This document shows positions 4,196-18,420 of a stretch of DNA of 32,391 bases, piece after piece (position 1 is the first letter of the stretch; every line of letters starts with the position of its first letter). A program made the position numbers and the translations under genes. The DNA lies in IMG/VR virus record IMGVR_UViG_3300037246_001109, positions 1 to 32,391 of that record; one strand, written 5' to 3'. This stretch comes from a virus. The notes below the pieces were generated by a model. The model was given only the letters and a program-made list of their open reading frames with translations. It was not told where the DNA came from and searched no databases.

Positions 4196-4800
4196 CAATA
4201 AAAATTCCGGTTGTATTGACTCAACAAAAGCAAGCGCAAACACTCGCAAATTATCTTCCTAGCGGGAAGATTTTTGCTGCTAAAAATATCATCGGAACTA
4301 ACATCAGAAAATTGTTGCTTGGATTTGCAACAGAAATGTCGAAAGTTGATTCGCTAATAGCGTTATTCAGAAGGGATACCGTTCCCGACACAACACAAAA
4401 TTATTTAGATGAATGGGAATCCGCGCTTGCAATTCCTGATAGCTGTTTGAAGGGTGACGGAACGGATGATCAGCGCCGAATAGGGGTTCTGATTAAGCTT
4501 GCTGGTTACGGTTTGCAAACACCGCAAGATTTTATTGACCTAGCCGCAAAGTTCAACATTATTATTAACGCAGAAGGCGGCGCGAATCGTGGAATTTATG
4601 GTAAGGCACCGACGATATCTTTTGGGAGCGATAAAGAAGCGCGATTCACTTTAATAATTGCTCCAATCGAAAATATCGGCGAAGCGTTCACATATACATT
4701 TCCAATAACTTTTGGTACACAGGATCTTGCAACACTAGAATGTTTATTTGAACGTTTTAAGCCCGCAAATGTAAATCTTAGATATGAAAATGTTGTTTAG
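4192..4800 (+). CDS. Mu gp48 / YmfQ-like baseplate protein (DUF2313)
   Basis: 202 aa. The sequence LANYLPSGKIFAAKN, the Leu-rich helix LRKLLLGFATEMSKVD-like segment, and DTTQNYLDEWESALAIPDSC match the YmfQ/DUF2313 family. That family always follows the baseplate J protein in Mu-like tail operons and is thought to close the baseplate periphery next to the fibre. The start overlaps the gp47-type stop as ATGA, implying coupled translation. The order gp47-gp48-fibre is preserved here. Confidence 0.8.
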   Translation: MTIKIPVVLTQQKQAQTLANYLPSGKIFAAKNIIGTNIRKLLLGFATEMSKVDSLIALFRRDTVPDTTQNYLDEWESALAIPDSCLKGDGTDDQRRIGVLIKLAGYGLQTPQDFIDLAAKFNIIINAEGGANRGIYGKAPTISFGSDKEARFTLIIAPIENIGEAFTYTFPITFGTQDLATLECLFERFKPANVNLRYENVV

Positions 4801-4810
4801 GAGATAATTC

Positions 4811-6067
4811 GTGGAAGATCTTACCGGCAAAATCACAGGGAACACACTTACTGCCGCTGAATGGAATCAACTACCGACTGAAGTTCAAAATGTTATTGAA
4901 GCGTTTGGGCAAGGTTTAAGTAACGGTGATTTAGACCAACTTGGTAAATCCATTGCTGGTTACGCTGCGACTGGCGATTGGTATACCGGCGGCGGTGCGG
5001 CTGATGTTTATACCGCAACCAAAATTGCTGGATTTCAAGCGCCACCCGATTATTTTGTTGGGATGACTGTACGTTTCCGCCCAACAGCTGCAAATACCGG
5101 CGCATCGACTATCAATGTCGCAACGCTTGGCGTTAAAGACATTAAGCGCGAAGACGGAAACGCGCTAAATGCTGATGATATCATAACGGCTCGTGACGCT
5201 TGGATACGTTATGACGGAACTGATTTTCTTCTAACAAATTTTTCGTCTGGCGATATTATAACACCATCTAGTTTGTCACCGGGTTTGGGAATTGGTCAAG
5301 TAATTTGGACCGACAACACTACAGTAACTGTTGCGCCGGGTGTTGGTGGTAACATCGAAATAAATATTGACGGAACTAAGCTTTCGCAAACTGGCGATCT
5401 AGTTTTCATTCTTGGCGATTTTGGTGTTGGTGGTTCGGTTCTTGATACGGGTTCGGAAACATCGTCAACACCCTATTATATGTATGTTGATAACGACGGC
5501 GGCGCAATGGCTCCCGTACTTTCTGCCGACGCTCCAACTTTACCCGGAACTGGAAACAAAGCTGGTTATCATCCTTCGAGAACCGACGAACGTTGCATTG
5601 GTTCTTTTTGGAATAATGCAGCCGAACACATTTCAAGGTTTACAGTTTCAAACGCTGGCGAGATGAGACTACACCAACATGATTCTGATCATGAGCATGA
5701 GCTTCTGACAACTTTACGAAATTGGACCGCAGTACCGCTTAATATTCCTAAGTGTTGTTATTCTGTTAAGGGTATGTCTTATGCGAATGGTGTTACGCCG
5801 ACATTTCACTTCGGCCCTGATGATGCTGCTGGAACCTTGAGCGGTTCTAATCCTCTTGAGTCTGGAAACCAGCAATCATTTATGGTTCTAACAACTGGTG
5901 ATGCTTCCAATAACAATACTGCAAGCGCGATTGATATTCCGATTGTGAATCCTGATACGCCTGAAATTATGTACGGTGTTACTGCTAATGCTGGTGGTGG
6001 TGGGCCGAAGAATAGTTTGGTTATAACATCATGGGTTGATATGTTTTTGATTGCACCGAGAAGTTAA
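4811..6067 (+). CDS. Tail fibre protein
   Basis: 418 aa, starting at a GTG preceded by TAGGAGATAATTC, a good AGGAG ribosome-binding site. The N-terminal ~40 residues probably attach to the baseplate. Residues ~65-145 (YTATKIAGFQAPPDYFVGM, RFRPTAANTGASTINV, YDGTDFLL) are a repeat module common to phage side-tail and fibre proteins. The remaining ~270 residues are beta-rich and not recognised; they probably include the receptor-binding tip. No chaperone-like tail assembly gene follows, as the next genes encode membrane proteins. Confidence 0.75.
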   Translation: MEDLTGKITGNTLTAAEWNQLPTEVQNVIEAFGQGLSNGDLDQLGKSIAGYAATGDWYTGGGAADVYTATKIAGFQAPPDYFVGMTVRFRPTAANTGASTINVATLGVKDIKREDGNALNADDIITARDAWIRYDGTDFLLTNFSSGDIITPSSLSPGLGIGQVIWTDNTTVTVAPGVGGNIEINIDGTKLSQTGDLVFILGDFGVGGSVLDTGSETSSTPYYMYVDNDGGAMAPVLSADAPTLPGTGNKAGYHPSRTDERCIGSFWNNAAEHISRFTVSNAGEMRLHQHDSDHEHELLTTLRNWTAVPLNIPKCCYSVKGMSYANGVTPTFHFGPDDAAGTLSGSNPLESGNQQSFMVLTTGDASNNNTASAIDIPIVNPDTPEIMYGVTANAGGGGPKNSLVITSWVDMFLIAPRS

Positions 6068-6071
6068 TTGT

Positions 6072-11935: not shown

Positions 11936-11960
11936 GATTCCCCAATTAATATATGAAAAA

Positions 11961-12158
11961 TAAAACAAAGGTGGCGAGCAAACATGTCTCGCTTTCCACT
12001 CATAATGGCGGCAGATTTGTAGCGGGTTAGTTATGAGCTTCCCGCTTTTTGTCAGCCCTTAGCCAAGTCTGTTCGGCCACTAGCGCGGCGTCATCACAGT
12101 TTGACACGTTTAATTTCACCTTTGTTTTAGCCTAACAATTGGGTGAGCAATTGCTAGG
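11961..12158 (-). ncRNA. Candidate structured RNA or leader with closing stem, hairpins and a pseudoknot
   Basis: A perfect 13-bp stem pairs TAAAACAAAGGTG (11961-11973) with CACCTTTGTTTTA (12117-12129) and encloses ~143 bases. Inside, on the minus strand, are GUGUCA/UGACGC, a GCGAG/CUCGC hairpin, and an H-type pseudoknot arrangement of AGCGGG/CCCGCT (12041-12046 with 12021-12026) and CTCATAA/TTATGAG (11999-12005 with 12031-12037). Just upstream is an 11-bp hairpin (12131-12158, loop CUCACC). Two helices have G-U pairs on the minus strand that would be A-C mismatches on the plus strand, so the minus strand is favoured. It precedes the 151-aa gene; whether it is a leader or a free RNA is unknown. 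Confidence 0.45.
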
Positions 12159-12188
12159 ACTTTTATAATAAAAACATTGTTTATTCCT

Positions 12189-12368
12189 TCAAAAAGTTTC
12201 AACTAACCATACACCGATTTTCCAGCTTATAATTAAACCGATTAAGCAAATTATACCATGAATAAAATCTTCTGCGGTTATCGTTGGATTAACAATTCCG
12301 CATTTCGGACAATTGTTTTTCCATTCTGAAATTACATGGTCACATTTTCTGCAAGGTTTCTTCGCCAT
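12189..12368 (-). CDS. Zinc-ribbon membrane protein
   Basis: 59 aa starting at ATG 12368 behind AAAGGGGTTGGGA. Two CxxC pairs (CRKCDH and CPKCG, 14 residues apart) make a small zinc ribbon at the N-terminus. The C-terminal ~25 residues (FIHGIICLIGLIISWKIGVW) are a membrane span. The layout resembles small zinc-ribbon membrane proteins of bacteria and phages with no known biochemical role. Confidence 0.6.
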   Translation of the reverse strand: MAKKPCRKCDHVISEWKNNCPKCGIVNPTITAEDFIHGIICLIGLIISWKIGVWLVETF

Positions 12369-12886: not shown

Positions 12887-12940
12887 TTCGATTCCAACCC
12901 TTTTTTGTGTTTGGACTTTGGACCAAACTTTGCGGTTTAA

Positions 12941-12962
12941 TTCCGGGGATAAATCCCCGGAA
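12941..12962 (-). terminator. Strong intergenic hairpin
   Basis: TTCCGGGGA and TCCCCGGAA form a perfect 9-bp GC-rich stem with a 4-base TAAA loop, 12 bases after the stop of the 203-aa gene. There is no clear U-tract, so it may be an RNA-stabilising 3' hairpin or a weak terminator rather than a classical one. Confidence 0.5.
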
Positions 12963-12974
12963 CCCATCACCATG

Positions 12975-14982: not shown

Positions 14983-15168
14983 TTAGAATTTCTCGAAATC
15001 TTCCGCAAACGGCCCTTCGGGGTAGAACTGGGGCGGTTTGTCTTTCTTCGCAATGATCGCTTTCAGAAGCATTGTCTTGTGGAATTCGTTCGTTTGTGCT
15101 TCGTACATTTCTTCAAGTTCCGCAATCGAAACATCTTTCAGATCGCGCATTTCGTTTTTATCAGCCAT
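14983..15168 (-). CDS. Small acidic helical protein
   Basis: 61 aa from ATG 15168, preceded by GAAAGGGAAAAA and located ~25 bases after the predicted transcription start of promoter copy 3. Helical N-terminal two thirds (DVSIAELEEMYEAQTNEFHKTMLLKA), then a Pro/Phe-rich end (PPQFYPEGPFAEDFEKF). No family recognised. Confidence 0.5.
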   Translation of the reverse strand: MADKNEMRDLKDVSIAELEEMYEAQTNEFHKTMLLKAIIAKKDKPPQFYPEGPFAEDFEKF

Positions 15169-15524: not shown

Positions 15525-16063
15525 TAGAACTTAAATCCCTTTTTCGCTGCTTTCTTCGTCTGGTAAGAAGCAATCGGACCATCATTTGTATTAAGAATTG
15601 TCAAAAATAATTCACCTTCCGCGCAAGAGCAGACCGCTTCGGATACCTGAAACCCACTTTTGCAATACATCGGCGGCATAATGTATAGCGCTTCATCTTG
15701 TGTTTCTTCGCTGACTCGCGCCCAAACCGAGCGGTTTGCATTTGCAAGCTTCCAATAATGGTTTGGATTGTAGGTGTTGCCTTCTCGGGGTGTCCCGGCT
15801 GCGCGATCTGCAGCGACCCAAGCGCCTTCGTTTTTAACTGCTTCTAGAATCGTAATTTTCTCGGCCATTTCTTCACCTTCCTTTTCTACACATTCCCAAG
15901 TCGTTGAGCCACCAAATTCAGGATACTTTGCCCACGGTGGGCACTTCGGGCAAGTGTTAAAATGATCTAAAGAATACGTTTGGCCATAATGGTTAGTGGA
16001 TTGCTTTTCGATATGACCGCATCTTTGACACTTGTATTTTTTATCAGAAATTGTTGCTGCCAT
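15524..16063 (-). CDS. Zinc-ribbon protein with possible internal second start
   Basis: 179 aa from ATG 16063 (GGAG 9 bases upstream). The N-terminus has CQRCGH and CPKCPPW pairs, a zinc ribbon of ~35 residues. Around residue 66 an in-frame ATG at 15868 is preceded by an excellent AAGGAAGGTGAAGAA site, so a 113-aa C-terminal product (AEKITILEAVKNEGAW onward) may also be made. The C-terminal part has several Cys (MYCKSGF, AVCSCAEGE) and an Ala/Lys-rich end. Function unknown. Confidence 0.55.
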   Translation of the reverse strand: MAATISDKKYKCQRCGHIEKQSTNHYGQTYSLDHFNTCPKCPPWAKYPEFGGSTTWECVEKEGEEMAEKITILEAVKNEGAWVAADRAAGTPREGNTYNPNHYWKLANANRSVWARVSEETQDEALYIMPPMYCKSGFQVSEAVCSCAEGELFLTILNTNDGPIASYQTKKAAKKGFKF

Positions 16064-17776: not shown

Positions 17777-18106
17777 TTACTTGGGAACCGTATTTCGGAA
17801 AACTACCGAAAAAACTCGATCGCTTTTTCTGTAAAGCCGAACAAATTCTTGCCCCATGTAACTCATTACTCTTTCACCGATTTCGCCGCCACCAGCGCAA
17901 ACCGTAAAATCTGAAACGTGAACGTAGGGGCGAACAACTTCAACCTCTTCTTCGGTGACGCTAACAACAGTTCCCCAACCAAAAGGCGCGCCGGGTTGAT
18001 CGGCAAACAGATTGACTCTATCGCCAACCAGCAAAACATTTGCCGTTTCCCTAACTACCGTTTCGCAACTTTCCGCGCCACGAACTTCATATTCTTTCAA
18101 ACCCAT
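17777..18106 (-). CDS. Hypothetical beta-barrel-like protein
   Basis: 109 aa from ATG 18106 behind AAAAGGGGTTGGAA. The region VGDRVNLFADQPGAPFGWGTVVSV followed by EEVEVVRPYVHVSDF has the strand pattern of an SH3-like or KOW-like small barrel. The end is VMSYMGQEFVRLYRKSDRV. I recall similar VRPYVHVSDF proteins in other phages, without known function. First gene after promoter copy 6. Confidence 0.55.
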   Translation of the reverse strand: MGLKEYEVRGAESCETVVRETANVLLVGDRVNLFADQPGAPFGWGTVVSVTEEEVEVVRPYVHVSDFTVCAGGGEIGERVMSYMGQEFVRLYRKSDRVFSVVFRNTVPK

Positions 18107-18145
18107 TTCCAACCCCTTTTCCGTTTTTGCTGATGCCATATACCT

Positions 18146-18173
18146 ATTATCGTCATTTTTACGAAAAACACAA
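18146..18173 (-). promoter_or_regulatory. Early promoter, divergent copy 6 of the repeated type
   Basis: Minus strand: -35 TTGTGT (18168-18173), 16-bp spacer TTTTCGTAAAAATGAC, -10 GATAAT (18146-18151). The spacer contains TTTTTCGTAAAAA, nearly palindromic. The downstream leader lacks the AATGTTG element of other copies, so this is the weakest member. It precedes the gene starting at 18106. Confidence 0.6.
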
Positions 18174-18237
18174 TAGCAAAAGTGAAAAAAGACGAAAAAA
18201 GATGAAAATAGTCTAAAAACCCATATAAATCAGCTAG

Positions 18238-18420
18238 TTAGCTATTCTCTTTTTCTTTGGTTTTGCCCCAAGCAATTCTTGCTATTTCTTCTTTACTAAA
18301 ATCGGCTTCGGCGAGCATACAAGCGAATTCTTCCGCGCAAGAAAAACAATAACCAGAAGCTTCAAGAGTCAATTCTTCTTTAGGTGTGTTGCAATTATTT
18401 TTACCTTTACATTTTGCCAT
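18238..18420 (-). CDS. Small Cys-containing protein
   Basis: 60 aa from ATG 18420 behind AGGGGTTTGAAA. KCKGKNNCNTPKEELTLEAS then CFSCAEEFACML gives four to five Cys that could hold a metal, followed by a helix (SKEEIARIAWGKTKEKEN). No family recognised. Co-directional and close to the neighbouring genes. Confidence 0.55.
   Translation of the reverse strand: MAKCKGKNNCNTPKEELTLEASGYCFSCAEEFACMLAEADFSKEEIARIAWGKTKEKENS

Follow-up and report, generated by a model that had tools for sequence, protein, structure and literature searches.

GOLLD and ROOL are structured RNAs of phages and prophages that have an unknown function, adopt complex folds and often lie near tRNA islands (PMC12286853). The RNA family described here likewise consists of orphan structured phage RNAs, some of them near tRNAs, but GOLLD and ROOL are far larger and form multimeric cages, whereas the new RNAs measure approximately 105–170 nt, have an unrelated fold and match no Rfam model. 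The stable RNAs C and D of phage T4 (species 1 and 2) are also small (139 and 119 nt) and sit inside the T4 tRNA cluster; their sequences, however, lack the GACAAA/ACAAA core of the new family, and we rejected them as homologues, given that our covariance model of the family (R2, see below) found nothing in the T4 tRNA region (L317) or in the whole T4 genome. By analogy, the new RNA probably works most like these orphan stable RNAs of phages (T4 RNA C/D, GOLLD and ROOL), though it is not one of them. In SAM-I-type riboswitches, a hinged arm folds back and thus brings its end loop into pairing with one strand of the junction; the likeness to the new family is one of design only, with no Rfam homology and no common downstream gene. 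The phi29 packaging RNA, of about 120 nt, has an end helix, a junction and a loop pairing, but the new family has no Rfam match and its hosts are diverse phage types instead of one lineage. Y RNA and YrlA resemble the new RNAs as small RNAs with an end-to-end closing helix in tRNA-rich phages, but no T-arm was seen in the new family. A Y RNA is also disfavoured by the distribution of the Ro/TROVE gene, which was present in 3 of the 27 member phages and absent from the record studied here and from 24 of the 27 (all of them fragments).

The RNA in question is encoded on the minus strand at positions 11961–12129 (169 nt from P1 to P1') of the window, i.e. the whole 32,391-nt stretch of DNA analysed here (IMG/VR record IMGVR_UViG_3300037246_001109), which is a 32-kb fragment of a tailed phage genome. 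Downstream of it, on the same strand, are the gene for a 151-aa protein of unknown family and those for a DnaQ-type exonuclease and a PolIII-alpha-type polymerase; genes for a zinc-ribbon protein and a SprT-like protein lie upstream. A preliminary description had proposed a perfect 13-bp stem that encloses several hairpins, with no gene across them. Indeed, the two strands of the stem are perfect inverted repeats, and no ORF covers the RNA except for a TTG-started extension of the next gene, which overlaps the last 8 nt of P1. The H-type pseudoknot order was likewise found on the minus strand, namely AGCGGG (12046–12041), AAG, CTCATAA (12037–12031), CTAA, CCCGCT (12026–12021), 15 nt and TTATGAG (12005–11999), and the strand-specific pairs were real, as GUGUCA/UGACGC and the 11-bp hairpin at 12131–12158 each contain one minus-strand G-U pair. 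The fold energy of the 216 nt from 11950 to 12165, whose comparison with shuffled sequences had been suggested in the same description, was -72.3 kcal/mol on the minus strand (z = -5.40) and -67.8 on the plus strand (z = -3.78), and none of 200 shuffles was as good on either strand. For the stretch from P1 to P1' alone z was -5.10, again with 0/200 shuffles as good.

The core consists, in this order, of the closing helix P1, UNNUAAGG, P4, a CAAA/ACAAA internal loop, P5, the pseudoknot strand, GGAAA and P6 (Table 1). The loop of P5, which comprises 6–7 nt across the family, pairs with the strand just after P4 and thereby forms the pseudoknot. The conserved core comprises P1, P4, P5, the pseudoknot and P6, while P2, P3 and the hairpin upstream are peculiarities of this phage.

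Table 1. Elements of the RNA and its immediate flanks, in window coordinates.
Feature	Position	Strand	Evidence
Whole structured RNA	11961–12129	-	Fold z -5.1; model R2 (built without the window) matches 11963–12072(-), E 1.7e-10
P1 closing helix, 5' strand	12117–12129	-	CACCTTTGTTTTA; 13 perfect pairs with 11961–11973; covariation among members (0/10000 permutations)
P1 closing helix, 3' strand	11961–11973	-	TAAAACAAAGGTG; as for the 5' strand
P2 hairpin GUGUCA/UGACGC, window-specific insertion	12088–12107	-	Pair probability 0.8–0.85; missing from L009/L108
P3 hairpin UGGCCGA/UUGGCUA, window-specific insertion	12060–12079	-	Predicted pairing; missing from nearest homologue
P4 5' strand GGCUGA	12052–12057	-	Pairs with 12010–12015, one U.U mismatch in the window; 95% of cells paired in 34-sequence alignment
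P4 3' strand UCUGCC	12010–12015	-	34-sequence alignment (A6)
Conserved CAAA, internal loop 5' side	12048–12051	-	Invariant in A5/A6; GACAAA partly demanded by search pattern
Conserved ACAAA, internal loop 3' side	12016–12020	-	Invariant in A5/A6; partly demanded by search pattern
P5 hairpin AGCGGG/CCCGCU, inner AG/CU beside 7-nt loop	12021–12046	-	Covaries between L009 and L108 and in A6
P5 loop CUCAUAA, pseudoknot 5' strand	12031–12037	-	Pairs with 11999–12005; permutation 0/10000 across family
Pseudoknot 3' strand UUAUGAG	11999–12005	-	Compensatory change in L009/L108; permutation 0/10000 across family
Conserved GGAAA, 3' of pseudoknot	11993–11997	-	A5/A6 alignments
P6 hairpin GCGAG/CUCGC	11974–11992	-	Pair probability 0.97–0.98
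UUUUU tract directly 3' of P1, possible intrinsic terminator together with P1	11956–11960	-	Sequence
11-bp hairpin directly upstream, outside conserved family	12131–12158	-	Fold
Weak sigma-70-like site TTGAAG-16-TATTAT	12165–12192	-	9/12 matches; not above chance as a class; start would be near 12158

Homologues were sought with a covariance model, R1, which was built from the window sequence alone and contained P1, P2, P3, P5 and P6 but not the pseudoknot. A scan of 86 sources (1.1 Mb, mostly relatives of the replicase) yielded one homologue, L009:5181–5303 (E = 3e-6), in the phage that carries the nearest polymerase (65% identity), and a further scan yielded L108 (E = 3e-5). Both lack P2 and P3, with about 48 nt gone, and keep the remainder. 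Compensatory changes, on which the preliminary description had made its proposal depend, were abundant. The pseudoknot, which is no part of R1, changes from CUCAUAA/UUAUGAG in the window to CUCACAA/UUGUGAG in L009 and L108; between the latter two, the P5 helix changes from GGA/UCC to GCU/AGC and from CUG/CAG to AUG/CAU; and the P1 change from AAAACAAAGGUG to GAAGCGGGAGUG is matched by changes on the opposite strand.

The wider family was searched for in IMG/VR with a gapped IUPAC pattern of the letters common to the window, L009 and L108. Many matches showed the same layout with unrelated helices. An earlier IUPAC pattern had given 110 stretches, nearly all of them chance matches, with L108 and L009/L175 as the sole real ones; a search of viral contigs for the core as an exact 27-nt pattern gave no homologue. 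An alignment of 23 sequences (A5) without the window was used to build model R2, which covers the core only, with P1, P6 and the pseudoknot omitted, since the alignment was unreliable outside the core. R2 matched the window with 41.2 bits (E = 1.7e-10), as the sole match in 1.1 Mb, and it added members that had not passed the pairing filter, including L230, L213, L298, L276, L288 and L306. One stretch, L322, fits the strict version of the pattern but has no R2 match and was rejected. In total, the family comprises 37 matches, spread over 34 virus records of IMG/VR whose lengths range from 5.6 to 332 kb, with two copies in each of three records (one of these copies being weak, at 21 bits). The member phages are of diverse types and do not form one lineage. 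The sequence of P1 is unrelated between members, and its length reaches 25–28 bp. The paired copies lie approximately 0.5–1.2 kb apart (L272 record, 14983–15069 and 15838–15948; L273:1154–1270 and 2466–2576; L276 record, 5307–5414 and 5963–6069).

Covariation is strong in P4, P5, the pseudoknot and P1, and the members share one covarying fold. The covariation score over P4, P5, the pseudoknot and the pair that brackets it was 0.612 for 23 sequences and 0.617 for 34 sequences, compared to 0.209 and 0.206 with shuffled partners and at most 0.204 with slid partners, and none of 500 shuffles reached it. In the 34-sequence alignment, three pairs of P4 showed changes on both sides, and the bracketing pair was C-G, U-A or U-G in 34/34. 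When each strand was scored with its own rather than a swapped partner, the pseudoknot reached 440 vs 317 ± 11 and P1 613 vs 364 ± 16 (0/10000 permutations each). Part of these signals was selected: GACAAA, ACAAA, CGC and GAA were demanded by the search patterns, which affects the conservation of those letters, and the first filter demanded complementarity of P4 and of the loop, which affects the P4 and pseudoknot signal. Less exposed to this selection are the P1 tests, the window itself and the members recovered only by R2, and the AGG before P4 was not among the selected letters. Several of the R2-only members also pair the P5 loop, for example CAGCAA/UUGCUG in L213 and GCUGG/CCAGC in L276.

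A strict pattern had 11 matches in IMG/VR, 10 of them confirmed by R2, whereas in the genomes of bacteria and archaea (84,980 genomes, 257 Gb) the same pattern had three matches, all of which lack the core. In 493 cellular genomes (299 Bacillota and 194 Cyanobacteria), R2 gave two matches, both without the CAAA/ACAAA hairpin. The cellular matches were all rejected because the core is missing from them: L319, L320 (which we read as coding sequence for a repeat protein), L321, L327 and L328. Of these, L321 scored 20.9 bits, yet neither its loop nor its pseudoknot fits. As far as the search pattern is sensitive, these counts support a restriction of the family to viruses. There was no R2 match in T4 or in the named phages related to the window's replicase module, and neither the window RNA nor approximately 18 concatenated members had a homologue among named phages by nucleotide BLAST (50,697 records for the members). 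The members known so far thus stem from virus contigs of environmental origin. Rfam 15 contains no family that matches the RNA of the window, whether gathering thresholds or a limit of E up to 10 were applied; the one match, to mir-1205 on the opposite strand, is due to chance. Nor was there a family for the RNA in 11 member loci, or in L324 at E up to 10. The proposal of a novel structured RNA with a pseudoknot was thereby borne out: the RNA is conserved, covarying, on the minus strand and unmatched in Rfam at permissive thresholds. It is a new RNA family, with novelty judged against Rfam 15 and the accessible literature; our literature search found nothing on this RNA, most subscription papers and published catalogues of predicted viral RNAs being outside its scope. 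'New' refers to the family, as its role may prove to be of a known kind.

The genomic surroundings bear on what the RNA might do. tRNA genes were found within 1 kb of 8 of the 35 members compared to 4 of 199 control loci, the latter being chance matches to the search patterns (pooled p = 4e-5), and all 32 tRNAs near members are on the RNA's own strand. L232 is flanked by a tRNA on either side, only 5 nt separate the end of L307 from the next tRNA, and L256 follows closely after one. Of 26 member phages, 12 carry tRNA genes; the window's 32-kb fragment carries none. Some stand-alone members (the window, L108, L205, L289, L291 and L273) have a U-tract after P1, a feature that is not universal; a rough script found a run of at least four T beside the best P1 in 13/35 members. 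No downstream or neighbouring gene family was common to unrelated members; sharing was limited to related phages. The idea that the RNA controls the replicase, also part of the preliminary description, found no support, because some relatives have the replicase but not the RNA and others carry the RNA away from the replicase. Indeed, the two nearest relatives have it before a zinc-ribbon/DNA-ligase pair instead of exonuclease and polymerase; Cronobacter phage Ss1 and Vibrio phages VA-RY-3 and PVA7 keep the exonuclease–polymerase pair without the RNA; and other members lie in tRNA arrays or beside tail genes, with no downstream gene in common.

We slightly favour the explanation that the RNA is one of a family of small, structured non-coding RNAs that is restricted to viruses, with lengths of approximately 105–170 nt, and that these RNAs are probably stable and act in trans. 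The closing helix P1, variable in sequence, brings the ends of the RNA together. Because only about 4 nt join P4 to the pseudoknot strand, we infer either a hinge at the CAAA/ACAAA loop, which interrupts the P4–P5 arm and would let P5 fold back against P4, or pairing of the pseudoknot between two molecules. The context suggests that the RNA is a gene acting in trans, which in tRNA arrays might be excised along with the tRNAs and in stand-alone members might end at P1 and the U-tract. Its invariant unpaired letters could then be the surface to which a partner from the phage or the host binds, and the location in tRNA arrays makes a partner involved in translation or RNA processing plausible. 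This last step is the weakest, being suggested by location alone. The 27/35 members without a tRNA within 1 kb and the lack of tRNA genes in the window speak against the explanation, though weakly, as the records are fragments and missing neighbours count for little. We consider it an even call whether the family forms a virus-only class of compact pseudoknotted RNAs, in tailed phages from less than 40 kb to more than 300 kb, that is kept in tRNA arrays and acts in trans on the translation or RNA machinery of host or phage (or is catalytic) via its A-rich core. It is uncommon for a new class of small RNA to be restricted to viruses and to combine strong covariation with an unpaired core that is conserved, and such cores are often receptors or active sites. 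The repeated placement in tRNA arrays makes the role of orphan phage stable RNAs (T4 RNA C/D, GOLLD, ROOL) testable on an RNA of approximately 105–130 nt, and phage genome annotation gains a covariance model.

An architecture in which P1 closes the RNA, the unpaired core is conserved and a pseudoknot reaches the junction is also aptamer-like, and the RNA could accordingly be read as a cis-regulatory element or riboswitch-like aptamer, in which P1 and the U-tract would form a conditional terminator while the hinge–pseudoknot core would bind a ligand or protein and control the downstream genes, here the replicase. The T run after P1 in some members and the close start codon (shortly after the RNA in L108, about 25 nt after it in the window) fit such an element, which we nonetheless deem unlikely: a conserved downstream gene family was sought among the members and not found, members lie among or between same-strand tRNAs, and the replicase neighbourhood is not kept in relatives. 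The varied operons, the absence of a preferred gene and the strand shared with neighbouring tRNAs would instead suit a cis-acting transcript element that works anywhere in a phage operon, such as a put-like antitermination RNA, a processing site or an RNA-stability element. As several members seem to end at a U-tract, which is the opposite of antitermination, and as a P1 of up to 25–28 bp suggests a self-contained RNA, we regard this as quite improbable.

We see just as little probability in a new ribozyme, for example a self-cleaving one, with the invariant A-rich loops and the pseudoknot as putative catalytic core. Small size, conserved unpaired letters, variable helices and a pseudoknot are indeed ribozyme-like traits of this phage RNA, and the window has a Twister-P5 ribozyme on the RNA's strand, about 0.8 kb upstream of it. 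Twister-P5 scores above gathering in three of the 27 member phages; in the other two, however, the twister is 20–30 kb from the RNA, no small ribozymes were found in 11 member loci, and there was no match to known ribozyme families. Finally, the perfect 13-bp terminal inverted repeats, readable as TA-flanked, together with the pseudoknot and with TnpB-like domains in 4/27 member phages, might recall a MITE-like element or the scaffold of a phage RNA-guided nuclease (TnpB/IscB/Cas-like). This would be very surprising, since the TnpB-like genes are not adjacent to the RNA in those four phages and were not found in the other 23 of 27 or in the window, since tRNAs a few bases away leave no space for a guide, and since P1 sequences are unrelated between members, unlike the terminal repeats of a single element.

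Several other elements were observed around the members and their relatives. The Twister-P5 ribozyme of the window is at 12911–12971 (-) (46.7 bits), between the end of a 203-aa ORF (12975), which it follows directly, and the SprT domain encoded by the next gene, so that its cleavage would cut the transcript upstream of both the SprT gene and the pseudoknot RNA. The IMG/VR contig L004, whose exonuclease is identical to that of the window, stops 76 nt before that gene, and the RNA region is therefore missing from it. In L009, an HNH-like ORF (4583–5017) lies just upstream of the RNA, while its close relative L108 has none. Ro60-like TROVE domains occur near the tRNA clusters of three tRNA-rich phages (L256 record, 42707–42937; L269 record, 189835–190059; L325 record, 17982–18245). 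ARAGORN made a tmRNA-like call (marked *) at L248:1168–1477, in the tRNA cluster of a phage fragment with a family member, and a bacterial class A RNase P RNA lies at L303:11322–11705, inside the tRNA-rich region of a 102 kb phage contig.
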